Origin: Nothopassalora personata | Taxonomy: Eukaryota > Ascomycota > Dothideomycetes > Mycosphaerellales > Mycosphaerellaceae | DNA: 64,000 nt | Assembly: GCA_033816765.1 (NCBI GenBank) | Contig: CM066291.1 | Location: 1,364,001-1,428,000, forward strand | Direction of reading: 5' to 3' | Shown here: in pieces, positions 10,740 through 46,505 of the stretch | Numbering within the stretch: position 1 is the stretch's first letter | Layout: each line of letters opens with the position of its first letter | Position numbers and translations under genes: made by a program | The notes under the pieces: model-generated | The model's input: only the letters and a program-made list of their open reading frames with translations | What the model was told of the DNA's origin: nothing | The model's database searches: none

Positions 10740-11058
10740 TGTTACGGATCGGTCTGGGGAAGCCCGTAGCCAACCAATCGATGCCAGCAGACCAGCGGAT
10801 GCACCCGATATGCAGAGTGCTCTCAGTGCTCTCGGGTGCTCTCTCGAGAGAGCAGAGAGAGCAGAGAGAGCAGGAAAGATCACGCCAAGACACGGCACTA
10901 TATAGACGACGCTCTTTTGCAAGTAGATAGGAGCCTCGTGCTCAACCCATTTTAAGTATACACCATATACTGTTTGGAACCACTACCTTCATAACTGATT
11001 GAGACATCCCTGCAAAGATCCAAGCCCGAGTTGTGATAACGTACAGCGGTTCCTAACA
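10740..11058 (+). repeat. Element B 5' LTR
   Basis: 319 bp, identical over its length to 12821-13139. It contains a TATA-like box (10899-10905, TATATAG), a CTCTCTCGAGAGAG palindrome and three tandem AGAGAGCA units. CGTAC target duplication on the left. Confidence 0.95.
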
Positions 11059-11084
11059 ACTTTGAGCACCACCACCAGGGCACT

Positions 11085-12083
11085 TTGCATATGTCTGGGA
11101 GAGACGCTACCCGGAGTCCGTCACGACAACAGCCACAGTCAACTGGCATCACGGAACGAATGAGCGAAATGTCGATTACAGGAAGCAGCAAGAACAACAA
11201 CACTCCTATGGGTATGCTGAACCCATTGGACCACCACCGTGCACCTAAGGTGTCTACGCCGGAGACGTTCGACGGGACCAAGGACAAACTGGAGGCTTTT
11301 CAACTGCAGGTTCAGTTGTACCTTCACTTCAACGCACACCAGTTTCAAGGCGAGGCTTCTAAAGTCTTGTACGCCGCATCCTTCCTACGAGGAAAAGCAG
11401 CTAGAGGATTCCGACCATACCTCAAGGACTGGCTACACAACCAGGGCGAGGGAGAAACACCGAAAACGGAAACTCGAAAAATTTTCCACGACTACGACGA
11501 GTTTGAGACGAAACTCGATGATCTATACGGGATACCAAATGAGGAGGTATACGCCGACCGACATATCCGACAACTTCGACAGACTACTTCTGTAGCGCTG
11601 TACGCCTCAGAATTCCAAGGATATGCCGCCGACCTGGAATGGAACGACGCAGCTTTGCGATCGCAGTTCTACCTCGGGCTGAAAGACAACGTCAAAGCCG
11701 AACTATCCCGAAACGCCAGCGTCGTTACGCTAGGGGCGATGATCAAGGCAGCAAAGGAGATCGACGAAAGGCTCCAGGAGTTGAGGTACGACCGACACGT
11801 ACAGCCTGGATACCAGAGACCCGCCGCGGGCGGAAGAGGGGGCTTCAAGGCCAGAAGTCAGGACCCTAATGGTTACGGAGACCCAATGGAATTGGACGTA
11901 ACGGAACGTAGGACAGGAAGGGGGCTGAAGAGCAAAGGTTCCACCTGCTACGTATGTGGCGAGCAAGGCCATTATGCAAGGAACTGCAAGAAAAAGAACA
12001 TAGTTAGCCGCGAGTTCAACGCAATGATTCGCGAAGAGAAGACATACCAGGAATGCGAGAGCTTTCTCTCGAAATCTGCCTAG
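11085..12083 (+). CDS. Element B Gag with CCHC zinc knuckle
   Basis: 332 codons. Residues about 65-230 form a retrotransposon Gag capsid-like domain (FLRGKAARGFRPYLKDWL, then the YASEFQGYAADLEWNDAALRSQFYLGLKD pattern in part). A basic linker follows, then C-x2-C-x4-H-x4-C (CYVCGEQGHYARNC). The PMELDVTER motif and the region after the knuckle (NIVSREFNAMIREE) match Gag of element C (PMELDVTER, NMVRREQFNTMQRR), so the two are homologous. It ends with a stop soon after the knuckle, unlike the 733-aa Gag of C. The start ATG lies 27 bp after the LTR. It would package B RNA, with Pol supplied by C-type elements. Confidence 0.9.
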   Translation: MHMSGRDATRSPSRQQPQSTGITERMSEMSITGSSKNNNTPMGMLNPLDHHRAPKVSTPETFDGTKDKLEAFQLQVQLYLHFNAHQFQGEASKVLYAASFLRGKAARGFRPYLKDWLHNQGEGETPKTETRKIFHDYDEFETKLDDLYGIPNEEVYADRHIRQLRQTTSVALYASEFQGYAADLEWNDAALRSQFYLGLKDNVKAELSRNASVVTLGAMIKAAKEIDERLQELRYDRHVQPGYQRPAAGGRGGFKARSQDPNGYGDPMELDVTERRTGRGLKSKGSTCYVCGEQGHYARNCKKKNIVSREFNAMIREEKTYQECESFLSKSA

Positions 12084-12186
12084 CAGAAACAACCTGATGA
12101 CGAGGCATCAAACAGCGGCTTCTTGATTTGATGACCTAGGACACAGAAGTCAACACTACGACACGGAAAACAGATAAAGGACGAAC

Positions 12187-12747
12187 TTACGACGAGACCA
12201 ACTCCGAGAAGGATTCAGGAAGGAGGAGATTCCCATCCAAGGACAAGCTAGGGTCGAAGACCGAAGGATCGGAGGCAGGAAACCACCAGTCTTCCGGGAT
12301 GGAAGGCGGAGCGGCCTCGAGCTCCCCTTGTTCTAACACTTGGATGCTCGCCTCCTCGACAGCGATCGCCTCGCCCTCGCGCTTTTCGTGCAGCTCAAGC
12401 TGACGACGAAGACGCGCCTCCTTCGCATAGGCTGCCGCGATCTCTTCACTCTTGCGAACGAGATCATGACGGACCGCTTCAAGCTCACGGGTGAGCTTGT
12501 CCCGTACGGACTGAAGGGACTTCCACTCAGCAGGAGTGACTCGCACGTCACAACCCTTGATGTTGTGTTCGTTGCACTCCGAACAGCGGCCCGATTTGAT
12601 GTGGACACGGCACACCTTTTTCTCACGAGTGCAGAAAGAGCACGACTTGACCATAGTAATCCCGTTCTCTCGAATGAACTTGGCAAGCTTCTTGCGACGA
12701 TGCGTACTGGTTTTGGTGACGGGAAGGGAAAGGGAAGAAGAAGACAT
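12187..12747 (-). CDS. Antisense ORF of element B: Zn2Cys6-like cysteine cluster plus coiled coil
   Basis: 186 codons on the strand opposite gag, with its ATG 73 bp from the 3' LTR. Residues about 35-68 have the spacing C-x2-C-x6-C-x8-C-x2-C-x7-C, which fits the Gal4-type Zn2Cys6 consensus (CX2CX6CX5-12CX2CX6-8C). A charged helical segment of about 60 residues follows (AYAKEARLRRQLEL...KREGEAIAVE), likely a dimerising coiled coil, then an acidic tail. The N-terminus is basic and serine-rich. It is clearly homologous to the antisense frame of element C at 14179 (shared SGRC, CDV, AYAKE-RLR, EAIAVE). Transcription from the antisense side of the 3' LTR is inferred. A DNA-binding regulator is the simplest reading; an RNA-binding or structural role remains possible. 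Confidence 0.8.
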   Translation of the reverse strand: MSSSSLSLPVTKTSTHRRKKLAKFIRENGITMVKSCSFCTREKKVCRVHIKSGRCSECNEHNIKGCDVRVTPAEWKSLQSVRDKLTRELEAVRHDLVRKSEEIAAAYAKEARLRRQLELHEKREGEAIAVEEASIQVLEQGELEAAPPSIPEDWWFPASDPSVFDPSLSLDGNLLLPESFSELVSS

Positions 12748-12820
12748 CGTTGGATGACAAAGTTGGAAAGGAATGACATCTTGTAAGCTTCGGGACGAAG
12801 CTAGGCTAGAAGGGGGATGG

Positions 12821-13139
12821 TGTTACGGATCGGTCTGGGGAAGCCCGTAGCCAACCAATCGATGCCAGCAGACCAGCGGATGCACCCGATATGCAGAGTG
12901 CTCTCAGTGCTCTCGGGTGCTCTCTCGAGAGAGCAGAGAGAGCAGAGAGAGCAGGAAAGATCACGCCAAGACACGGCACTATATAGACGACGCTCTTTTG
13001 CAAGTAGATAGGAGCCTCGTGCTCAACCCATTTTAAGTATACACCATATACTGTTTGGAACCACTACCTTCATAACTGATTGAGACATCCCTGCAAAGAT
13101 CCAAGCCCGAGTTGTGATAACGTACAGCGGTTCCTAACA
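12821..13139 (+). repeat. Element B 3' LTR
   Basis: Identical to 10740-11058, followed by the CGTAC target duplication (13140-13144). Preceded by the purine tract AGAAGGGGGATGG. TATA-like box at 12980-12986. Confidence 0.95.
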
Positions 13140-13239
13140 CGTACTAACGCGGGAGAGCCTTAGGCTTACCGTGCTTAGACCGTAATAAGTAGCTAACTAT
13201 TATAGGTGTAAAAAAGTTTTACTTTTTGCACCTATAACT
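13140..13239. other. RIP-like TpA-rich spacer between elements B and E
   Basis: Short TA-rich sequence with no frame, similar in composition to 10160-10735. It contains a short inverted pair (TAGGTGTAAAAAAG / CTTTTTGCACCTA, about 13203-13234). The last five bases before the LTR of E (TAACT, 13235-13239) are the target duplication of that element. Confidence 0.5.
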
Positions 13240-13445
13240 TATTACGTTACAAGTAGTTAGAAGTCATAAAATGGGCTTATAAAGGTGTCTTAAAAGTAGA
13301 TAGTAGATTATATATGTCTAAGCTAGAATTGAAAGGGCTACTTATAGAAAGGCTATAGGTAACTAATTAATGTTACCTGATTCTTAGCGGCTGCTACCTT
13401 AGGTTTAATTAGGCTACAGCGCCGGTGCACGCTTAGATCGTGACA
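13240..13445 (-). repeat. Element E 3' LTR (left)
   Basis: About 206 bp, homologous to 27545-27750; on the element strand it begins TGTCACGATC, where the right copy keeps TGTTACGATC. More damaged than the right copy, with more T and A in place of C and G. TAACT target duplication at 13235-13239. Confidence 0.85.
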
Positions 13446-13564
13446 CACCCCCTTAGCTCGTGCGGCTTGTAGGTAAATGAGCTAATCGCATGTAATCGCG
13501 TGCACCCTATCTATTACCTATTACCCTACCTACCCACCTTATAACGTTAGGCTTCGTTACTACG

Positions 13565-14090
13565 TGTTAGGTTTGGTATAACCTAATGATATCACAAGTC
13601 AAGAAGACAAGCTCAATCGGGTTTGTTCTCGGGCCGATGGGAAGTTTGAGGGAGAGTGATGAAGCAGTAGTGTCTTGACCTTACAAGGGCTCAAGAAACA
13701 ATGAGGCAGAGGTTGGGTTGTGGTGTATTCCAAACAGTGATATTGAACAGTGAGTTGAACGCCTCGAAGCCATAAGGGATTCTCAGCGCTCCTAAATACA
13801 AAGGAGATTCATAGTCTTAATCTGTTTGATCCGTTGATCTGTTCGACAGATCAAACAGAGCAGCAGATCGTCTCGCGTCGTACTCTGCTCTGATCTGTTG
13901 ATCTGTTCGACAGATCAAGCAGATCAGCAGAGCACTTTGCAGCGGCTGCGCCCGCTTAACTGTGAGGTATCTGATTGGCTTGCGGTTGCAGGCCCAATCC
14001 GATCCGTAACACACTTTGCAGCGGCTGCGCCCGCTTAACTGTGAGGTATCTGATTGGCTTGCGGTTGCAGGCCCAATCCGATCCGTAACA
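13565..14090 (-). repeat. Element C 3' LTR (left)
   Basis: 526 bp, same as 20407-20932. On the plus strand it runs TGTTAGG...CGTAACA. It contains two copies of a hairpin (13834-13854 and 13898-13918; 8-bp stem TTGATCTG/CAGATCAA, loop TTCGA) and ends in two tandem 79-bp units (13933-14011, 14012-14090). Confidence 0.95.
13933..14090. repeat. 79-bp tandem duplication at the LTR edge of element C
   Basis: Two adjacent copies of a 79-bp unit (CACTTTGCAGCGGC...CGTAACA). The same duplication is in the other LTR (20775-20932). On the element strand it doubles the start of U3, including the TGTTACGGATCGG terminus, so an internal copy of the LTR end sits 79 bp inside the real one. Confidence 0.9.
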
Positions 14091-14178
14091 CCATCCCCCT
14101 CTTAGCCTAGCTCGCCACGAGCTGAGGTCATAACTCTGTTGCCTCGGCCGTCGTCGTTTCTTTGTCCATGTTCTCATC

Positions 14179-14739
14179 ATGCCAAAGGTGTCATCTTCAT
14201 CCAGCACCTCTCGTCGCCTCAAGTTAGCAGAAACGATCGAAAGTTTTGGAGAGATAATGGTTCGGTCTTGTTCCAACTGTCGAGCGCATTCGCGCGTGTG
14301 CAAGGTACACGTGTCGTCGGGGCGGTGCAACGAGTGTGTGCGTCGCAACGTTCGTTGTGACGTGAAGGTGTCGCGTTCCGAGTTCGATCGTCTGATCGGT
14401 GAGAAGAAGAAGTTGGAGAGGCAGATTAAGGAGGCCCGCGAGGCTCAAGAGCGTGCTCGGGAGACTCTGAACACTGCATACGCAAAGGAGGAGCGGCTTC
14501 GGAAGCAAATGGAGCTCGTGGATCAGAGAGCCGACGAGGCCATTGCTGTGGAGTCCGCAGCCTTGTCGGAGCTGGAGCAGCAGGAGTCGCTGGACTTTCA
14601 CCTGTCTCCTAACACCTGGGGGCTCATGGTCGATCAGGGATACGACGTGTCGTCGGATTTCTGGTTGTACGGTCCTTCTTCGCTCCGGGTTTCTTCTGGT
14701 GTCGGAGGTACTCCATCAGGAGCACCCGGCAATTCTTGA
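14179..14739 (+). CDS. Antisense ORF of element C: Zn2Cys6-like cysteine cluster plus coiled coil
   Basis: 186 codons, antisense to gag-pol, starting 88 bp inside the 3' LTR edge and overlapping the end of the chromodomain frame (14624-14739). Residues about 30-65 carry C-x2-C-x6-C-x8-C-x2-C-x6-C, inside the Zn2Cys6 consensus, with SGRCNEC and CDVKV. About 70-140 is a charged heptad-like helix (EKKKLERQIKEAREAQERA, AYAKEERLRKQMEL). The C-terminal tail is Ser/Gly/Pro-rich. Homologous to the antisense frame of element B although the two elements differ greatly in size. The upstream sequence in both starts with CCATCCCCCT and TAGCCTAGC, the shared PPT side. A regulator of element or host transcription is an inference. 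Confidence 0.82.
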   Translation: MPKVSSSSSTSRRLKLAETIESFGEIMVRSCSNCRAHSRVCKVHVSSGRCNECVRRNVRCDVKVSRSEFDRLIGEKKKLERQIKEAREAQERARETLNTAYAKEERLRKQMELVDQRADEAIAVESAALSELEQQESLDFHLSPNTWGLMVDQGYDVSSDFWLYGPSSLRVSSGVGGTPSGAPGNS

Positions 14740-15940
14740 GGTTCTCTCTCGGTTCCCAGGTATTTTCTGATTCGTCGTATCCTTTCCACTTGACAAGGTA
14801 TCGCTGACCTTTCTTGTTCAGGATTTTTTCGACTTCGAATTCGTTCTCTGCTTCCGGCTCGAAATGGAAGTTCTCTTGGCAAGGTGTTTCGGCGTCCGCG
14901 GGTTCCAGCCTGGAAACATGGAAGACTGGGTGGATCTTTGCGTCGGGTGGTAGGCGTAGGCGGTAGTTGACTGGTCCGACGATTCTGTCAATGAAAAATG
15001 GTCCGACCTTGACATGATCCAGCTTCTTGGTCTGTCTCCTTGTTTTCAAGTTTTTTGTGAGGAGATAGACCTTATCCCCCTCTTTAAGCAGAGGCGCCAT
15101 TTTTCTGCCATCTTGTCGTTGGTGAGACAGTTTATGTTGTGCATCCGTGATCGCTTTTTGCGCTTCTTTGTGCACTTCCTTAAGAGTATCCGTCGTCACG
15201 ATTGCTCTTTCGGCCTGTGGGTGGAATCCAGGTTCTCCAAACAGGTTAGGATCCTTTCCAAAGTTCGCATAGAATGGCGTCGTAGAAGTTGTCTCTGATT
15301 TGTGGTTGTTCAGTGCAATCTGTGCCATTGGCAGCAGTGAAACCCAATTGTCTTGTGTATGGTTGATGTAGTGCCGTAGATATTGTTCCAAGGTTTGATT
15401 TGCTCTTTCCGTTTGTCCGTCGGTCTCCGGATGGTAGGCTGTTGACAGTTTATGTTTGATGCCGATTGTTCCCATGAGTGTTTTCCAGTAATTGGAAGTG
15501 AACAGCTTGTCTCTGTCCGTGATGAAAACTTCTGGGAATCCATGGTATCGGATCAACCTGTCCAGTATCAAGTATCCGAGCTGTTCTGCAGTGTATGTCT
15601 CTGATGCTGCGATGAAGTGTGTATACTTTGTAAGTCTGTCAACCATGACCAGTATCATGTCGTAGGGTTGTTCGGTGACTTGATCCCGTGAGATGGGGAG
15701 TTTGGTGATGAAATCCATCGTGACTTCGTCCCATGGTTTCGTAGGAGGAGTCCTGAATTGAAGGTGACCGTATTTTGCATGTCGGGCAGCCTTGTTCTGT
15801 TGACAGTGTACACAGCGTTTGACGTAGCGTAGCACTTTTGTCTCATCTGTGGAAATGAGAAGCTGCGTTGTATGAGGTCCACTGTTTTCGTTGTTCCAGG
15901 GTGTCCGTACAGCGGATCGTCGTGATGTTGTCGTATACAT
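14624..15940 (-). pseudogene. Element C integrase core and chromodomain (separated by frameshift)
   Basis: 438-codon frame. It contains the C-x2-C half of the integrase zinc finger (CVHC), the catalytic core with D-x-H-P-E-T-D-G-Q-T-E-R context (STAYHPETDGQTERANQ), a GPF/Y-like region (KVGPFFIDRIVG) and a chromodomain (YLVKWKGYDESENTWEP). Its N-terminal HH half is in the neighbouring frame (15655-18195), whose reading shifts near 15836-15840 in a run ACAAAAG; one base appears missing. The chromodomain marks it as a chromovirus, a group known to target heterochromatin, which fits insertion into RIP-degenerate DNA. Domain calls are firm; whether the shift is a mutation or recoding is not settled, but integrase zinc fingers are not usual recoding sites. 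Confidence 0.88.
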
Positions 15941-18195
15941 TCTTCCTCTCGGTCCTTTGGCACTTGGTATTTCCCTTGCGATATTGGGAATTGTTCTTCT
16001 GTGTCGCGTAGTATCCGCACGATGTTGTTGAACTCTTTCGTGTTGGCACTAAGACTTCCGTCGGGGTTTGTCTTGAGTATCTTGTGTTGCACTGGTTCTT
16101 TTGCTTCCATGTAGTCGCTTCTTCGGCTCAGCGCGTCGGCGCGGCCGTTCTCTGTCCCTGGAGTATATTTGATCTCGAACTTGTACTGTCCCAGCAGCTC
16201 CGACCAGCGGGCTTGCCTTCGGGTAAGTTCCTTTGTTGTCGTAAAGTATGTGAGATTCTTGTGGTCTGATAGAATCGTTAACTTTGGTGGTCCTTCGACG
16301 TATACTCTCCAATGTTGCATGGCAGCAACTATGGCTAGAAGTTCCTTGTCATGGATGTCGTAGTTCTGTTCCGCCGTGGTCATTTTTCGGGAGTAATAGG
16401 CTACTGGGTGTCGCTTCCCATCGTGTGTCTGTGTTAGACATGCGCCTATTGCCATATCGGACGCGTCGGTCTCGATGTGGACTTCCTTGCTACCATCGAA
16501 TAGTCGAAGCGTGGGGGCTGACACGCATTGCTCCTTAAGTCGTTGGAACGCGTCAGATTGTTCCTTTCCCCATTTCCAGTTGACGTCTTTCCTCGTAAGC
16601 ATCGTCATTGGTGCTGCTGTTTTCGAATAGTCCTTGATGAATTTCCGGTTGTAGTTGGCTAGTCCAAGGAACGATTGTACGTCCTTGACTGACTTTGGTT
16701 CTGGCCATTCTCTGATCGATTGTGTCTTTGCAGGGTCGATCGCGATCCCCGTGGTGCTGATGATGAAGCCCAAGAATTTGACTTCTTTCCTGTGGAACTC
16801 GCATTTCTCTGGTGCTGTCTTGAACCCTGCTCCGGTGAGCCGTTCAAATACGTCCTGGACTTGCTTGATGTGCTCCTGGAGGGATCCTTTGGTATAGACC
16901 AGTATGTCGTCCATATATGCGATGACGCATACGTCGAGTAGGTCTCTAAGTGTTTCGTTGACAAGGTCCTGGCAGGATGCGGGTGCGTTGGTCAATCCCA
17001 TTGGCATGACCTTAAACTCGTATAGTCCGTATCGTGTTCTGAAAGCGGTTTTCCATTCTTCTCCTTCCGCCATTCGTATAGCGTAGAAGGCATCTCGTAG
17101 GTCGATCTTGGTGTACCAGTCTGATCCGGTTAATCTGTCCTGTGCTTCTTCGATGTTCGGTAGCGGATATCGGTTTTTGATCGTGATCTCGTTCAACTTC
17201 CGGTAGTCTTGTACGAGTCGTAGTTTCCCGTTTGGTTTTGGAACGAACATGCATGGAGCGCCTGCGCTTGAGGTGGACCGCTGTATCCAACCTTTCGCTA
17301 GCTTCTCCTTCAGCCATTCCCGTAAGGTCTGGAGCTCTTTTTCGGACATTTGATATAGGGGTCCCCATGGAGGCTCTTTTCCTGGCTGAATGTTTATCTT
17401 ATGATCCCATGGTGCGTGTTTAGGTAAGGCGTCCCTGCCTCTTTCCTCTTCAAAGAGTCGCGACCACTTGCGATATTCTTTGGGAATATCCAACTCCGAA
17501 ATGTTGGTATTCTTCGATGGTGCGTTACTTCCATCCGTTCCGGTGATGTCATGACCCAACTGCCCCAAGTCGGTGTCTATCCCAGTCGAAGGTGGTTCTT
17601 CTGTCCTTCTAGTCGGTGCAAGCTGTATCCTATTTAGCTGTCTTACCTCATCTACCAGCGAACGCTGCCGCTGCGTAGGTTCAATGTCGATAACGCAATC
17701 GCATTGTTCAAACCTGAGTACTCCTCTTCTCCAGTCGATTACTGGGTTGTGCTTTCTCAACCAAGGCATCCCAAGTACGATGTCATGACTGGCCATGTCA
17801 GTAACATCCAAGGTGATTTCCTCGTGGTGCTGTTGGATTGCAAGTGGCAGCGGTATCGTCTCGCGCTCCACACTGGGTAAGGATGATCCGTCTACCGCGA
17901 TCAATTCATACCCCTCTTCCTTTCTTCGGGTAGCTAATCCGTGTCGTTTGACAAATGATTCGGAGGCAAAGTTCCCGCTCGCTCCGGAATCTATCATGGC
18001 ATATGTCCGTTGCCCGTTGACGATAATCTTCGTTCGAAACACTGTTGTTGATGCTTGAGCCTGTGTAGTGTTGCATAACTCCCTTTGGTCGCTCATTCCT
18101 GGGGAGTCGATCCTTTTCCCGATGCGTGGGTAGAACGTTGCATTTCGTGTCGCAAGGCTTCGGCTTGAACCTGTAGCGAAGCTCCTGGTCTCCAT
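15655..18195 (-). CDS. Element C Pol: protease, reverse transcriptase, RNase H, integrase N-terminus
   Basis: 846-codon frame in -1 register to gag, overlapping it by about 100 nt. Protease active site DSG at residues 69-71 with the partner DIVLGMPWL near 138-146. RT spans about 270-460 with YMDD at 427-430 and LPNIEE, FYAIRM and MGLTNAPASC blocks. RNase H begins near 572 (ETDASDMAIGACL) and ends with GRADALSRR (683-691). The integrase zinc finger starts with HHDDPLYGHPG (about 756-766). The last roughly 60 residues are off-frame sequence after the break at about 15838. All catalytic motifs are intact except the split integrase. Confidence 0.92.
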   Translation of the reverse strand: METRSFATGSSRSLATRNATFYPRIGKRIDSPGMSDQRELCNTTQAQASTTVFRTKIIVNGQRTYAMIDSGASGNFASESFVKRHGLATRRKEEGYELIAVDGSSLPSVERETIPLPLAIQQHHEEITLDVTDMASHDIVLGMPWLRKHNPVIDWRRGVLRFEQCDCVIDIEPTQRQRSLVDEVRQLNRIQLAPTRRTEEPPSTGIDTDLGQLGHDITGTDGSNAPSKNTNISELDIPKEYRKWSRLFEEERGRDALPKHAPWDHKINIQPGKEPPWGPLYQMSEKELQTLREWLKEKLAKGWIQRSTSSAGAPCMFVPKPNGKLRLVQDYRKLNEITIKNRYPLPNIEEAQDRLTGSDWYTKIDLRDAFYAIRMAEGEEWKTAFRTRYGLYEFKVMPMGLTNAPASCQDLVNETLRDLLDVCVIAYMDDILVYTKGSLQEHIKQVQDVFERLTGAGFKTAPEKCEFHRKEVKFLGFIISTTGIAIDPAKTQSIREWPEPKSVKDVQSFLGLANYNRKFIKDYSKTAAPMTMLTRKDVNWKWGKEQSDAFQRLKEQCVSAPTLRLFDGSKEVHIETDASDMAIGACLTQTHDGKRHPVAYYSRKMTTAEQNYDIHDKELLAIVAAMQHWRVYVEGPPKLTILSDHKNLTYFTTTKELTRRQARWSELLGQYKFEIKYTPGTENGRADALSRRSDYMEAKEPVQHKILKTNPDGSLSANTKEFNNIVRILRDTEEQFPISQGKYQVPKDREEECIRQHHDDPLYGHPGTTKTVDLIQRSFSFPQMRQKCYATSNAVYTVNRTRLPDMQNTVTFNSGLLLRNHGTKSRWISSPNSPSHGIKSPNNPTT

Positions 18196-20294
18196 GCTTC
18201 TCTGTTGTTGCGTTCCTGGATCTTCTGCGTTTCTGAGTAGAGTGCTTTCACGTGCTGAACTGACTTCCTGAGTTCATTCGTGATCGTTATTCCTGACGGC
18301 GTGATGTATCCAAATGCGGTCATCTTGCTTCCAATGGGTGGTCGCTCCTGTACGATCTTGGCGCTATCGTTGTCGTGTTCCACGATGGGGTGTCTCCAGA
18401 CCATCCCTCGCATCGTGTCGAGCATTAGATCGAACTGTTCTGGGTGCAGGTAGCGTCGTCGCTGTATCTTTGGGAAGACTTCTTCGCTTCTCCGAATTAC
18501 ATGTACGAGTAATTCGAAGATCATTTTTGGTGCGTCCATAGTAAACGTTTGGACTTCGTTGTCGTCGTCGGTGTCGCTCTCTTCTCCTTCGGAGGAATCT
18601 TCGTCGCTTGATTCTTCCGGATCCTGTTCTTCTTGGATGTTGTCCAGCCCGGTGGTTTCTTGACTTTCTTCCTGTGGTTCGGGTGACCACGATCCGTTCC
18701 ATCCTGGGTCCTGGTTTTCCTTGTCCTCGTCGTCGAAGCAGGATTCGTCGACGTCCACTTCCTGGAGCTTGGCATCCTGCCTGTGTTGCGCTCCCAGGGT
18801 TCCTCGCGGCTGCTGAGGCCAATACCCTGCTCCTAACTTGGCGGAGTAGTGAACCTGACACGAGTCTTGGTAACAGAATCGCCAATGAAGGCTTCCGTGA
18901 CCATTTCGAGATTCGGATTCGATCTCGTAGTCGACTCTTCTTGTCATCATTCCAAATTCCCTTGTTCGGTCCAGTCGTAGGACTTCTTGGCGGGCTCCTT
19001 CATAGAACGTCAGGAGTTCGCGTCGTTGACTTCTGTAGGGTTCTTCCGTTACGTTGGGGAAGTCCTCTATGACCTGTAGGATCTTATGTGTAATGTCGAG
19101 CCACGCTTGTCGTTGTCGCGCGTGTTCTGGGAATCGTTCCCTCACTACTGTAGTGAGTTGTTCCCAGGTTCCTTGCGCATCCGGGTGGTCTGGAAAGATC
19201 ATTCGTATAGGTCCTCGTGGGGAATTGGTGTGACCTCGTGTCATCATGTTGAACTGTTGTGGTTGGTTTCGCAATTCAGATGAAATGACCGTCATCTGTT
19301 GCCCATGGTATCCTCCTCGTCCCTGTGAGGGGTCCAGGAGAGGCTCTGTGCTTCCTTCGCTAGCTCTCTCCTCCACTCCTTGAGTATAGTCGGTGTCTTC
19401 TGGAGACCCGACACTGCTCTCAAGTTTACTAGTTCGTCGTTGCATCGTGTTGAACTGTTCGCGGCGCACCATATTCTTACCGCGACAGTCCCTTGCTAGG
19501 TGGCCAGGTTTGCCACATCCATAGCAGGTTCGTGTTTCCTTTCCTGAACTCGGGGGTCTTCTGTTCCCCTTGCTGTTCCTGATCTTGCGACCCCTTTCGG
19601 TGACGTCGAGCTCCATTGGCTGTGGTCCGTAGTATGGCTTGTTTCTGGGCTTACTGTAGTTGTCGTTAAAGCCCTTGTTACGATTGTCGTAGCCTGGGGT
19701 AAATCCGGCTCTTCCGGATACTTTGGAGTCGTATCGTCGCTCTAGAGCTCTCTCGTAGAGTCTGTCGTCAAGATCGATCGTGACCTTGACCAGAGATCCC
19801 AGGTCATCGATCCTTCGACCGTCCCTCATTAACTCATCCTTGACATGCTCCTTCAATCCTCTCCGGTACATGACTTGAAGTGCTTCGTCGTCCCAATCAG
19901 TAAGCTGGGCGTACTCCTGGAATTTGGCAGCGTAGTCGGCAGTGGATGTCTTCTGGGTCAGATGTTGGATGACGCGTACAGCAGTAGCAACCTCGTTCGA
20001 GATGCCAAAGACGCTCTTCATCGCGCTCTTGAGATGACCGTAAGACGTAAAGATCCCGTTAGCGTTGTCGTTGCCGTTGCTGTCCAGGTAGGTCCTAAGG
20101 AAGGGTTTGACCCAATGCTGTGCTCGTCCTCTCAGGAAGGTAGTGGCAAAAACAGGCTTGAGGTTCTCAGCCATGGAGTTGAACAAGAAGTACATATCCA
20201 TCTGAGCAACCCAAGTGTCGAACTTGTCTCGATCGCCATAGTAGAATTCTGGCTTGCCAACCTTGAGGGTGTCGTTGCCTGTATGAGTAGCCAA
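18093..20294 (-). CDS. Element C Gag with CCHC zinc knuckle and acidic extension
   Basis: 733 codons. A capsid-like domain spans about 20-200 (TFLRGRAQHWVKPFL, WDDEALQVMYRRGL). Then comes PMELDVTER, a basic stretch and CYGCGKPGHLARDC (about 270). A C-terminal half absent from element B follows: a mixed region and a highly acidic tract (EDSSEGEESDTDDDNE, about 585). This extension might act in assembly or chromatin contact; that is inference. The ATG at 20294 lies 113 bp after the 5' LTR edge (20407). A primer-site-like GCTTTGAAC follows the LTR. Confidence 0.9.
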   Translation of the reverse strand: MATHTGNDTLKVGKPEFYYGDRDKFDTWVAQMDMYFLFNSMAENLKPVFATTFLRGRAQHWVKPFLRTYLDSNGNDNANGIFTSYGHLKSAMKSVFGISNEVATAVRVIQHLTQKTSTADYAAKFQEYAQLTDWDDEALQVMYRRGLKEHVKDELMRDGRRIDDLGSLVKVTIDLDDRLYERALERRYDSKVSGRAGFTPGYDNRNKGFNDNYSKPRNKPYYGPQPMELDVTERGRKIRNSKGNRRPPSSGKETRTCYGCGKPGHLARDCRGKNMVRREQFNTMQRRTSKLESSVGSPEDTDYTQGVEERASEGSTEPLLDPSQGRGGYHGQQMTVISSELRNQPQQFNMMTRGHTNSPRGPIRMIFPDHPDAQGTWEQLTTVVRERFPEHARQRQAWLDITHKILQVIEDFPNVTEEPYRSQRRELLTFYEGARQEVLRLDRTREFGMMTRRVDYEIESESRNGHGSLHWRFCYQDSCQVHYSAKLGAGYWPQQPRGTLGAQHRQDAKLQEVDVDESCFDDEDKENQDPGWNGSWSPEPQEESQETTGLDNIQEEQDPEESSDEDSSEGEESDTDDDNEVQTFTMDAPKMIFELLVHVIRRSEEVFPKIQRRRYLHPEQFDLMLDTMRGMVWRHPIVEHDNDSAKIVQERPPIGSKMTAFGYITPSGITITNELRKSVQHVKALYSETQKIQERNNREAWRPGASLQVQAEALRHEMQRSTHASGKGSTPQE

Positions 20295-20406
20295 GGCATT
20301 GATAGCATCGTTTGCGGTCTGAGGTCGTCGGGCTCTGCCTGCTTAACTGGGGGCGGGTGTTCCCCGTTCACTCTGTCGGTCTCCCATCGTAGAGGGCGTT
20401 CAAAGC

Positions 20407-20932
20407 TGTTAGGTTTGGTATAACCTAATGATATCACAAGTCAAGAAGACAAGCTCAATCGGGTTTGTTCTCGGGCCGATGGGAAGTTTGAGGGAGAGTG
20501 ATGAAGCAGTAGTGTCTTGACCTTACAAGGGCTCAAGAAACAATGAGGCAGAGGTTGGGTTGTGGTGTATTCCAAACAGTGATATTGAACAGTGAGTTGA
20601 ACGCCTCGAAGCCATAAGGGATTCTCAGCGCTCCTAAATACAAAGGAGATTCATAGTCTTAATCTGTTTGATCCGTTGATCTGTTCGACAGATCAAACAG
20701 AGCAGCAGATCGTCTCGCGTCGTACTCTGCTCTGATCTGTTGATCTGTTCGACAGATCAAGCAGATCAGCAGAGCACTTTGCAGCGGCTGCGCCCGCTTA
20801 ACTGTGAGGTATCTGATTGGCTTGCGGTTGCAGGCCCAATCCGATCCGTAACACACTTTGCAGCGGCTGCGCCCGCTTAACTGTGAGGTATCTGATTGGC
20901 TTGCGGTTGCAGGCCCAATCCGATCCGTAACA
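20407..20932 (-). repeat. Element C 5' LTR (right)
   Basis: 526 bp, matching 13565-14090 including hairpins and the 79-bp tandem duplication (20775-20853, 20854-20932). Followed by the CTACG target duplication (20933-20937). Confidence 0.95.
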
Positions 20933-43153: not shown

Positions 43154-43299
43154 AGATAATGTGAGTAGATTGATGTATTGAAGAAGATCTACGAAAGCGA
43201 GAGAGAGAGATAAGCTCGAAAAAAAAAGGGGTCCTGCCTAATGCGGACTAGTGCATCGGCAAAACCGGTGGGACCAGTGAATGGGCCCCAGCATCAAGT
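43154..43299 (-). repeat. Element D 3' LTR (left)
   Basis: 146 bp; GAGAGAGAGAG, a run of nine A and GGGCCCC are included. Matches 46698-46842 except for one A. Preceded by GACCA. Confidence 0.9.
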
Positions 43300-46200
43300 C
43301 ACCCCCATGACGAGGCTCTAGATGCAAAACAGGTGCTATCAGCACCAAACAGGACATACGCTCGGATCGAACATTTGCTGACCACCGTATTGTGGTTGTT
43401 GCTGAGCGAGTGATACAGTGCCCTACGCTGGCGCCGATTGGCTTCGAATTGATAGCCGTTCTGAGGGTCGCGGACGTTGACTGGCGCACGACGAGTGCGC
43501 TGCGGGCGTGTTGAGGGTGGTGGTGCCTCCTCAACAGGATCTGGTGTATCAGGAGGTGTGATAAAGTCGTCTTCATCATCATCCTCGACAGATGGCTTGG
43601 GAGGTGTTGTTGGCTGCACCTCCGGAAAGTCGTCCGGAGCGGTGTCTTGATAGCTGTCAACTACCTCCTGGGCCAAGTCCTCATTCACCTGCTGGACTGG
43701 TGTCTCAGCAGGGCGGTTGATAATAGTGATGTTCTTAGGTGTAGCTACACCCCCAGAATCACCACCCCCAGGAGCCACACCACGCTCGGCTCCAGCGCGC
43801 TTTGGCTGAGTCGATGCCTTGTGGTTGCGCTCTACAGGGAAGATGTCGTCCAGAGAGATGTATTCATCATCAGCTTCAGGCTCCTCGGCCAAAGCAGTGA
43901 TAGGCTCCTTGCCTTCAATGAACTGAACATCCTTGGTACGGAACACTCTATGCGCCTTAGCAACATAGACACGGTAGATGGTGCGGCTCTCGTATCCAAC
44001 AAGCTTGCCCTCCAATGAGCGGGAGTCAAACTTCTCACCTCGGCCGACACTGTGGTCGTACACGAAGGCGCGGCATCCATATGCCTTGAGGTGTGACAGG
44101 CTGGGCTTCACTTCGCCCTTGCCTTGCCACGTGTTGATGACTTCCTGAGGTGACAGTCCCTTGAGGGCTGCACTCGGAGTCAGGTTGAGTAGATAGACCG
44201 AAGCCTGCACAGCTTCTGGCCAGAGTGCCACTGGCAGGCCAGCATCAATCAGTAGCTTGCGTGACTGGACGCACACGATATGATTGCTGACCTCCGCACC
44301 GCCATTCTGTTCTGATGAATGAGGTGCTGTGATCTGAAGTGTGAAGCCCTCATCTTGTGAGAGCTGGGTGAGTGCGGTGCCTCCATACTCGCCGCCTCCA
44401 TCTATGCGTAAGATCACAATGCTGGCATTGTATTCTGTCTTCACATGACGGACAACGGTGCGGATATGCTGGGCAGCGCCATTCTTCTGCGCTGAACAGA
44501 ACACTGTTCGCTGCAGGCTGGCGAGGCAAGTGAATAGCGTGAAGTATCTCTCCTTGCCAAGCCCAAGGTTGCGGACTGTCACTACATCGGCTGCGATGAT
44601 GTAGTATGGTGTTGACGGTCGCACCATAGGTATGCGGTTATAGACTTTGTGCCCCAGTCCCATGCGACATGGTACGCATTCGCGTGGGTGCTTGCTGAGG
44701 TCACCGTTGCCGACAATGATGATGCGCTGATCGTTGTGAAGCTGCACTAGCTTGCGGCTGTGAATGTGTCCAAGGCGTCTGTGCCACAGGTCGCCAGTCG
44801 CGGCGATAGATGGCTCGACCTTAGATGATGCCAAAGCAGTCGGTGAATGCTTTAGCTTGAGGAATGGCAGTCCATTGTGACTGTAGCAGTGTGCCACCGT
44901 ACGCGCACCATTCCCCTTTGTGAAGAGGATCTGGTCGTCGTTACGATAATAGACACCCTTGCGGCGGAGAGCCTCTGTCGAGATCAGATTGGCTGCAAGG
45001 CCTGGCACGTACAGCACCTGCGAGAAGTAGGTGATGCCGCATCCATACAGGTCCAATTGGATAATGCCACAGGCTGTCGCAGTGATGGTGCCCTTGCCTG
45101 TCCTAATAGGGACATTGCAGGGCCGATAATCCATCATATTGCTCAGCTCGTTAGTCATATGAGAAGTGCAGCCAGAGTCCACAACCCAGTCGGTTGGGCT
45201 CTTCGCTGCCAGCAGTGCGGAGGTGTCTTGAATGTCATCCTCGGCAGCCATATACATGCTGTGGTTGCCGTTGTATGGAGTCATCAGATCCTCGAGGTTG
45301 TTCATGCCGTGAGCCGCAAATTGAGCGGTCTCTCCGGCGCGCTGCTGCTGAGGGTGGTCAGTGGTGTTGTTCACCTGCTGACGCTGTTGCTGGTTGCCAT
45401 TCTGGTTGCCGTTCTGCTGTGGTGGGTTCTTTGGTTTCCATCCAGCAGGTGCAAGTTCCGGATGTAGGTTCCAGCAAGTTACAGGTTGGTGAGTGGTACT
45501 GCCACAACCATGGCATGGGTCATACTGTTGACGCTGCTGGTTGTTGCCACCGTTGCCGTTACCGCGGCCTCCTTTGCCACGGCCACGACCACCTCGGCCT
45601 CCACGTGGATTGCCGCCGCCACCACGGTTGCCATTGCCGCCATTGCCCTGTGGGTTGGCGGGTGGGGTGGGAGTAGTCTGCTTTGCTGCAAGGTTTGCGG
45701 TCTCGCTCTGCTGAGCAGCCGCCTCATCAAGCAGATCACCAATCACCTTCTCGAGTGTGATGGTGGTGCTGTCCTCGATCCTGCCAGTCATCTGCCTCAG
45801 CTGTTCGCGCTTTGATGAGGCGAATGCTGGGAAGTAGGGCGCGATCTGGTACAGGAAGCGGAACATAGCCTGGGCCTTGGATATGGCCAGTTCTGTGTTC
45901 TTGAGATTGGCAAGCTTTGCCTGATACTGCTGGCAATACTTGTCAAGGTTGGAGCCACTGTAAGCATGTGACTCGAAGTCCAGATACAACGAGTATTCCT
46001 CGGACTTGCCGGTCTGGCCATATGTTGATTTGAGATGATCCCATAGTCCATCCGGAGCCTGATAGGCTTTGCAGTTGTCGGCGATAGACTGACTGCAGTT
46101 GGCGATGATGAGGGCGCGAGCTTGATACTTCTTCGCCTCCCATGCCTCAATCCGGTCGTCAAGCTCGTATTGCTGTTCACTCGGACGGATTGTAGGTCTT

Positions 46201-46505
46201 GGCTTGAGTGCTGTTGAATCGACAAATCCATACAGCTGCTCGCCACGCAGGACTGACTCGAGCATGTCGCTCCATCTCGGATAGTCGTCCTTGCCCTGGA
46301 GCTTGCTGACACCAGGGGTGCTATTGGTACTTCGACCAACCATGTTGCTGAAGATGCGACTCGTAGTCGCTATTGCTGGAAGCTTCTTCTTGGTTACAGC
46401 AGCCGACTCGGCTTGCTGTTGTTGCTGACTCTGGTCCCCGGTCACAGACTGCTGTGCCAGTGGTACCTCGAGTCCTGTGATGTTACCGTTATCGTCAGTA
46501 TCCAT
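43299..46505 (-). CDS. Element D Gag-protease-integrase polyprotein (Copia type, truncated)
   Basis: 1068 codons. Gag capsid-like region about 60-280 (W-x-x-L-K-S-T-Y-G-Q pattern). A glycine/asparagine-rich segment (GGGGNPRGGRGGRGRGKGG) precedes a CCHC knuckle (CHGCGSTTHQPVTCW, about 335). The protease has WVVDSGCTSHMT (about 442). Integrase has HRRLGH...CVPC, the G-G-E-Y-G block and HSSEQNGGAEV (DDE context). The C-terminal part contains SHLKAYGCRAFVYD, KGEKFD-type and acidic/proline regions. It then stops after GYQFEANRRQRRALYHSL, where RT would start in complete Copia elements. The deletion junction is probably near residue 1030. Confidence 0.9.
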   Translation of the reverse strand: MDTDDNGNITGLEVPLAQQSVTGDQSQQQQQAESAAVTKKKLPAIATTSRIFSNMVGRSTNSTPGVSKLQGKDDYPRWSDMLESVLRGEQLYGFVDSTALKPRPTIRPSEQQYELDDRIEAWEAKKYQARALIIANCSQSIADNCKAYQAPDGLWDHLKSTYGQTGKSEEYSLYLDFESHAYSGSNLDKYCQQYQAKLANLKNTELAISKAQAMFRFLYQIAPYFPAFASSKREQLRQMTGRIEDSTTITLEKVIGDLLDEAAAQQSETANLAAKQTTPTPPANPQGNGGNGNRGGGGNPRGGRGGRGRGKGGRGNGNGGNNQQRQQYDPCHGCGSTTHQPVTCWNLHPELAPAGWKPKNPPQQNGNQNGNQQQRQQVNNTTDHPQQQRAGETAQFAAHGMNNLEDLMTPYNGNHSMYMAAEDDIQDTSALLAAKSPTDWVVDSGCTSHMTNELSNMMDYRPCNVPIRTGKGTITATACGIIQLDLYGCGITYFSQVLYVPGLAANLISTEALRRKGVYYRNDDQILFTKGNGARTVAHCYSHNGLPFLKLKHSPTALASSKVEPSIAATGDLWHRRLGHIHSRKLVQLHNDQRIIIVGNGDLSKHPRECVPCRMGLGHKVYNRIPMVRPSTPYYIIAADVVTVRNLGLGKERYFTLFTCLASLQRTVFCSAQKNGAAQHIRTVVRHVKTEYNASIVILRIDGGGEYGGTALTQLSQDEGFTLQITAPHSSEQNGGAEVSNHIVCVQSRKLLIDAGLPVALWPEAVQASVYLLNLTPSAALKGLSPQEVINTWQGKGEVKPSLSHLKAYGCRAFVYDHSVGRGEKFDSRSLEGKLVGYESRTIYRVYVAKAHRVFRTKDVQFIEGKEPITALAEEPEADDEYISLDDIFPVERNHKASTQPKRAGAERGVAPGGGDSGGVATPKNITIINRPAETPVQQVNEDLAQEVVDSYQDTAPDDFPEVQPTTPPKPSVEDDDEDDFITPPDTPDPVEEAPPPSTRPQRTRRAPVNVRDPQNGYQFEANRRQRRALYHSLSNNHNTVVSKCSIRAYVLFGADSTCFASRASSWG

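Follow-up and report, generated by a model that had tools for sequence, protein, structure and literature searches.

Why should two neighbouring retrotransposons each keep a small gene that is read against the direction of the element itself? The question is raised by a stretch of 64,000 nucleotides from the fungus Nothopassalora personata (assembly GCA_033816765.1, contig CM066291.1, positions 1,364,001 to 1,428,000), here called the window, in which two Gypsy elements with long terminal repeats (LTRs), B and C, carry an open frame on the antisense strand beside the 3' LTR. The frames lie at 12187-12747 on the minus strand in B and at 14179-14739 on the plus strand in C. Each has 186 codons plus a stop, and the two are related (47% identity over 126 residues, E 2e-34). 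From ATG to LTR edge there are 73 bp in B and 88 bp in C, within the 70-90 bp given in the original prediction. That prediction also placed both frames antisense to gag, which needs correcting: the B frame ends 103 bp past the gag frame and does not overlap it, and the C frame overlaps the end of pol, encoding integrase and chromodomain, by 116 nt (14624-14739), with gag about 3.4 kb away. On balance we think it probable that the gene encodes an element-borne transcription factor, most likely an activator, which acts on the U3 region of its own element and is exchanged with that U3 as a cassette.

The assembly of the source genome (40 contigs, 54.5 Mb) contains at least 13 types of this gene (B, C, D, E, F, G, H, J, K, L, M, N and O), which differ at about 40% or more of their residues as compared; L, M and O are known from match tables alone, and K was read for its U3, leader and first codons. 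Nine full-length proteins could be read (B, C, D, E, F, G, H, J and N), and all but N entered tests of the reading frame. In 8/8 modules the antisense gene frame was the sole one of the six to be open across the interval. Similarity between modules averaged 87 bits for the proteins of this frame and 22-45 bits for the other five. The third codon position was more diverged than the first and second in 28/28 pairs (proportion of synonymous differences 0.64-0.89, of non-synonymous differences 0.34-0.59), although synonymous sites are near saturation and the protein-based alignment tilts the outcome somewhat in favour. Six cysteines are invariant in 20/20 and in 30/30 aligned proteins, and are kept at 90% or more in a wider alignment of 38 proteins that includes fragments. 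Taken between modules, these patterns point clearly to long-term selection on the protein, as had been proposed. An alternative candidate for the true gene, a sense-strand frame within this interval (12340-12786 in B; 184-804 of L043), was rejected, since no such frame is open in all eight modules and the antisense frame scores about twice as high as the best of the other five.

Most copies of the gene are intact. Over nine families, 117 of 151 copies have neither stop nor split, a count that includes one B and one D copy matching only partially: B 27/32, C 15/15, D 14/24, E 3/3, F 4/5, G 14/14, H 8/25, J 16/17 and K 16/16. The gene is also a regular part of the elements. We scored 109 pol copies of 2232 candidates and left out ten that were rich in stops; the remaining 99 all had an antisense frame behind pol, on the opposite strand and within 1.5 kb, in six families (D 23, H 23, J 17, K 16, C 15, F 5). 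Conversely, 3 of 102 antisense copies were without a listed pol. Elements that have lost pol and retain gag keep the gene too: among 121 gag-only copies scored of 1050 candidates, 68 adjoin a listed antisense frame, under eight module labels. We count this retention in favour of a regulator cognate to the element.

The protein has the architecture of a fungal transcription factor. By direct reading the cysteines are spaced x2-x6-x8-x2-x7 in B and x2-x6-x8-x2-x6 in C, as first claimed, and both fit the Zn2Cys6 consensus C-x2-C-x6-C-x5-12-C-x2-C-x6-8-C; in the G, H and N proteins the second loop is longer. AlphaFold2 predicts, in a metal-free model, a Zn2Cys6-like cluster followed by a helix of 73-74 residues, with a predicted local distance difference test score of 84.3 for B and 85.4 for C. 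When the model was compared with known structures, the ten listed matches were all Zn2Cys6 factors, at low Z and covering mainly residues 25-96. The Gal4-like cluster and coiled coil of the original prediction thus find support, as a tentative predicted fold. In all nine proteins the N-terminus is basic (+4 to +11) and the tail acidic (-3 to -11), the latter with 3-6 aromatic residues. The predicted cluster would suit DNA contact and the helix dimerisation as a coiled coil, and the tail resembles fungal activation domains. A sequence search of the PDB gave no direct assignment, with coiled-coil proteins and Lac9 surfacing at E 0.11-0.13. Named homologues occur in Pyricularia oryzae and Lithohypha guttulata. 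Two metagenome relatives (P0010 and P0011) bear the source name galactokinase, of which their sequences give no sign, and this looks like misannotation.

The main finding is that gene and U3 differ jointly among autonomous families that share a body. Over 5.6 kb, from the LTR interior to the pol end, D and F show 96.9% identity, and a 202-bp stretch of their LTRs is 100% identical. Between the pol end and this LTR core identity falls to about 50%: the proteins are 36% identical, and the U3s, at 43%, are no more alike than shuffled sequence (45%). The same holds for H and K, whose integrases are 97% identical to that of D and whose LTR cores match D at 99.5% and 97.0%, while gene and U3 are their own. 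In the six pairings among D, F, H and K, the U3s are 43-52% identical (40-45% when shuffled; the H U3 as compared is about 33 bp too short) and the cores 97-100%. Gradual change cannot yield so unlike a gene and U3 on near-identical bodies; exchange can. The F protein is 70-73% identical to metagenome proteins, much nearer than to that of D, so the lineages of the gene must predate the separation of the present bodies. The bodies of D and F (L023, L025) differ by 153 transitions and 14 transversions, an excess of transitions like that left by repeat-induced point mutation. An F-like element beside E (L031, L046) had looked like a cassette donor on a different body, from its lower pol score against C. 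With 217 transitions to 4 transversions over 2435 bp it proved to be a decayed F copy, and we dropped it as evidence.

Among the gag-only families the bodies are again alike, with gag 97-100% identical (N 93% over the part read). The B, E and G proteins are 32-36% identical despite this. The N U3 is 52-58% identical to those of B, E and G, and the N LTR resembles the others over its first part only. From these sequences the coupling of gene and U3 appears looser here than in the autonomous families.

The U3s also hold candidate operators. Repeated or palindromic 7-mers exceeded 300/300 shuffles in nine of ten U3s, after the terminal duplications of C and J had been removed; the G U3 did not (P 0.13). 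In B the U3 (about 10740-10882 in the 5' LTR, about 12821-12963 in the 3' LTR) holds a GAGAGCA array at about 10812-10874. In C the U3 of the 3' LTR (about 13808-14090) begins with a 79-bp duplication and holds a CAGATCA/TGATCTG array at about 13821-13933. Among the commonest words are GAGAGCA in B and D, CAGATCA in C, CTGATCA in F, K and N, CACGACC in H and CGCGACG in J; they are thus partly common to several modules and not all specific to one. Two pairs on different bodies are alike in both parts. D and B both have GAGAGCA arrays and their proteins are sisters in the tree (98/81, on long branches); the best match of the K U3 is N, and the K and N proteins are 55% identical.

How might such a system work? 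Ty3/Gypsy elements, both the families with a chromodomain pol and their gag-only dependants, carry the presumed factor gene on the antisense strand, in the space that separates pol or gag from the 3' LTR. An antisense mRNA would be driven by the 3' U3 from its back side, and the protein would enter the nucleus, bind the repeated heptamers of its own U3 as a dimer and turn on sense transcription, in trans, of the elements that have that U3. The order in the genomic RNA is pol, antisense gene, polypurine tract, U3 and R. Strand transfer through R, followed by a switch back near the pol end, would exchange the gene along with U3 and leave gag-pol and R-U5 in place. This route would follow from standard reverse transcription, and because the gene lies next to U3 in that RNA, template switching can swap both as one regulator-operator cassette. 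What the sequence itself shows is the gene and how it is conserved, the arrays of repeats, and that gene and U3 vary jointly on the common body of D, F, H and K; from these and a predicted fold we infer that the gene is transcribed in antisense, that its product binds DNA and activates rather than represses, and how the exchange proceeds. Together, the arrays, the architecture of a factor and the retention of the gene by gag-only parasites make a cognate regulator, read from the LTR's back side as the original prediction had it, the best reading.

A number of observations weigh against it. The gene adjoins U3, so a single exchange moves both, and co-exchange by itself does not prove coupling. 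The F-H and F-K U3s are 8 and 11 points above shuffled identity, and the U3s of B, E and G are 65-83% alike despite their dissimilar proteins. We had expected strong congruence of U3 and protein across bodies and found it weak: Spearman correlations between U3-motif and protein similarity were 0.22, 0.31 and 0.44 for 6-, 7- and 8-mers, reached by 484, 262 and 89 of 2880 permutations. K-N and D-B fit, F-N, which have motifs in common and unlike proteins, does not, and the comparison is suggestive only. Gal4 sites are CGG triplets, unlike the heptamer arrays found here. The curated Pfam cut-off for Zn_clus (PF00172, 21 bits) was missed by B at 10.4 bits, C was not listed, and 2/38 relatives matched at E <= 0.01; we therefore call the protein Zn2Cys6-like and claim no formal family membership.

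The copies within families are also less tidy than the comparison between them. A stop lies in the gene body in 10/24 D copies and 14/25 H copies, many apparently shared, yet these copies have multiplied; in H the 14 have a stop after an internal methionine at residue 26, and 3 further copies have one only ahead of it. The multiplied copies fit a diffusible factor supplied by intact ones, but fit a dispensable gene as well. Purifying selection among young copies was not seen, 19 copies of four families showing 9 non-synonymous to 2 synonymous differences. This is about what is expected without selection, which may not have had time to leave a trace in copies so young. The ratio of non-synonymous to synonymous change, proposed as a check on the gene, thus gave a mixed answer, with clear selection between modules and near neutrality among young copies. 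Finally, 53 of the 121 gag-only copies have no listed gene. A later search found the frame for one of them (C9:893025); the rest may hold types too distant for the search, or may lack the gene.

What other explanations would fit? The same protein might act on the same target with the opposite sign, repressing its own U3 to limit itself or to confer immunity to newly arriving elements of its type, like a phage repressor or a brake in the style of HBZ from human T-cell leukaemia virus type 1 (HTLV-1). This is the main rival, though we think it unlikely. The antisense position opposes sense transcription, the operator-like arrays have the antisense gene on one side and the sense core promoter on the other, and U3 and gene types vary jointly in D, F, H and K, as immunity types would; activation is favoured by the acidic, aromatic tails of 9/9 proteins, and retention of the gene in 68/121 gag-only copies is less expected of a brake. 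Slightly more doubtful still is the idea that gene and U3 travel together through adjacency only, the gene having some other task (nuclear entry, a role directed at the host, or counter-silencing) and both being carried by a single template switch between pol and R. The contiguity of the two, the fairly similar U3s that B, E and G pair with unlike proteins, the weak correlation across bodies and the multiplied copies with stops would all be explained in this way. It leaves the transcription-factor architecture of the protein, the motif arrays in 9/10 U3s and the double likeness of K-N and D-B unaccounted for.

A very improbable alternative is that the antisense RNA matters and the frame is incidental, the RNA pairing with the genomic RNA and feeding or evading small-RNA silencing. 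Copies with stops multiply, as this would allow, and the leader contains a conserved structure. The invariant cysteines (30/30), the excess divergence of third positions (28/28 pairs) and the higher similarity in one frame (87 bits against 22-45) argue against it. A broader version of the cognate-regulator reading, held only tentatively, is that the elements form regulatory types like those of phage immunity: one gag-pol, an exchangeable antisense Zn2Cys6-like factor with cognate U3 operators, many types coexisting without cross-talk, and gag-only parasites with cassettes of their own.

The structured leader lies between the antisense ATG and the polypurine tract. In B a conserved hairpin with a 7-bp stem occupies 12786-12802 on the minus strand (-7.9 kcal/mol, z -3.9), and in C its counterpart is at 14108-14124 on the plus strand (-8.5 kcal/mol, z -2.6). 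The polypurine tract of B, AGAAGGGGGATGG, was read directly at 12808-12820 on the plus strand, and in other modules too it adjoins the LTR start. The hairpin folds in 7/7 leaders tested (B, C, D, F, H, J and N), and the E, G and K leaders have the stem of B. Six leaders could be aligned without gaps, four being left out of this test for their differing stem lengths or loops. In these six, 42/42 cells pair and 3/7 pairs change on both sides; sliding the partner strand gave 26-55% pairing. Its place of action could be either the genomic RNA or the antisense mRNA.

The remaining features of B and C are as follows. Element B (10740-13139, plus strand) is gag-only, with LTRs at 10740-11058 and 12821-13139 identical at 319/319 bases and a 5-bp target duplication, CGTAC. 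Its gag (11085-12083) has a capsid domain and a zinc knuckle (Pfam Retrotrans_gag 42.5 bits, zf-CCHC 26.4 bits) and is not followed by pol. Element C (13565-20932, minus strand) is flanked by the target duplication CTACG, and its 3' LTR (13565-14090) and 5' LTR (20407-20932) are identical at 526/526 bases. Its gag lies at 18093-20294 (Retrotrans_gag 60.3 bits), the protease, reverse transcriptase and RNase H assigned by Pfam at 15655-18195, and the integrase and chromodomain at 14624-15940 (Chromo 55.1 bits, SH3_Tf2-1 61.9, and rve 31.3, just short of its cut-off of 32.6). With these domains, identical LTRs and a target duplication C is a Ty3/Gypsy chromodomain retrotransposon. Its pol is in two overlapping frames, the same short frame being present at C7:3922410; most other C copies have a single pol frame of 1214-1216 codons. 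Elsewhere in the window a long frame at 43299-46505 resembles a Copia-type gag-pol from its translation alone. The antisense gene family had no match at E 0.01 in this Copia-like element or in the window's element A.

Gag-only elements also occur in tandem, in even steps of 2056, 2082 and 2137 bp (C12:1356314-1367589; C5:3760598 and 3762680; C8:1779520 and 1781657), as expected if neighbours share LTRs. A decayed relative of the antisense gene is found, identical or nearly so, on contigs C20, C21, C30-C34, C39 and C40 and at C9:5388 and C9:20192. Such recurrence on numerous small contigs, and close to the end of one contig, suggests a subtelomeric or unplaced repeat. More generally, decayed copies of the window's repeats carry many TAG/TAA stops, and in the one tested the differences are almost all transitions, the pattern that repeat-induced point mutation would leave.

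That LTR retrotransposons can carry extra antisense genes has been known for years, though not what these genes do. A factor architecture that varies with its presumed promoter target makes this unknown role directly testable: is the element's own U3 recognised, and are the others not? Such specificity could explain how near-identical families, each young and rich in copies, persist together within a single genome, and why the gag-only parasites have retained a regulator of their own. One genome offers at least 13 natural regulator types for specificity tests.

How do these elements compare with known systems? The fungal Zn2Cys6 factors (Hap1, Lac9, Leu3, Ppr1, Put3 and Pho7) have the same cysteine spacing and resemble the tentative model in the cluster and the helix after it; the antisense proteins differ in falling below the Zn_clus cut-off. 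Host factors of this class are much longer and bind CGG triplets, rather than heptamers in arrays. In lambdoid phages the immunity region, a regulator gene with its operators, varies as one block between otherwise similar genomes; for a eukaryotic retroelement this is an analogy only. HBZ of HTLV-1 is a viral antisense protein made from the 3' LTR side, with a coiled coil and a basic leucine zipper (bZIP) rather than a zinc cluster. The likeness lies in the antisense placement on the 3' LTR side and the predicted coiled coil. HBZ is named in the accessible text of PMC11963269; relation was sought by Pfam alone. Pfam gave no bZIP match for B or C, and the 8 families listed for 38 relatives do not include bZIP.

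Tnt1, from plants, belongs to the Copia elements. In the Solanaceae it combines unlike U3 regions with a conserved body, described as 'modular evolution', and in this likeness to our families the accessible account mentions no regulator gene moving with the U3 (PMC1838419). Antisense open reading frames of plant Gypsy elements (Grande gene23, RIRE2 and Retand TRP28) occupy the same site, between pol and the 3' LTR, in most copies; the Grande protein is nuclear, TRP28 is predicted to bind DNA, and a regulatory role has been proposed (PMC7264820, PMC11963269). The accounts available to us mention no coupling of these frames to U3. TRP28 (PF04195) gave no match for B and C at E <= 1, and is not among the 8 families listed for the 38 relatives.

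The closest parallel is fungal. The Boty-like Ty3/Gypsy elements of Botrytis cinerea carry an extra antisense gene, brtn, credited to Zhao et al. 2011, Virology, by the citing papers (PMC8365987, PMC7264820, PMC4227169). Compared by its described placement alone, brtn too lies antisense in a fungal chromodomain Gypsy element, behind pol and ahead of the 3' LTR; a zinc cluster or exchange with U3 is absent from the accounts of it in these citing papers, as far as their text was accessible. No Botrytis record appears among 36 homologues of our protein, just two of which are labelled with an organism. The antisense placement, which the original prediction took to be undescribed, is thus already published for Boty and, on the plant side, for Gypsy elements (PMC8365987, PMC7264820, PMC4227169, PMC11963269). 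We found no report of an antisense Zn2Cys6-like gene swapping with U3, a weak negative, as most subscription literature lay outside the search. Judged by the accessible sources, antisense extra genes (Boty, plant Gypsy elements) and U3 modularity (Tnt1) are known, and an antisense Zn2Cys6-like gene that swaps with U3 appears to be new. Should BRTN prove homologous, the gene family would be a known one and the exchange would still be new.

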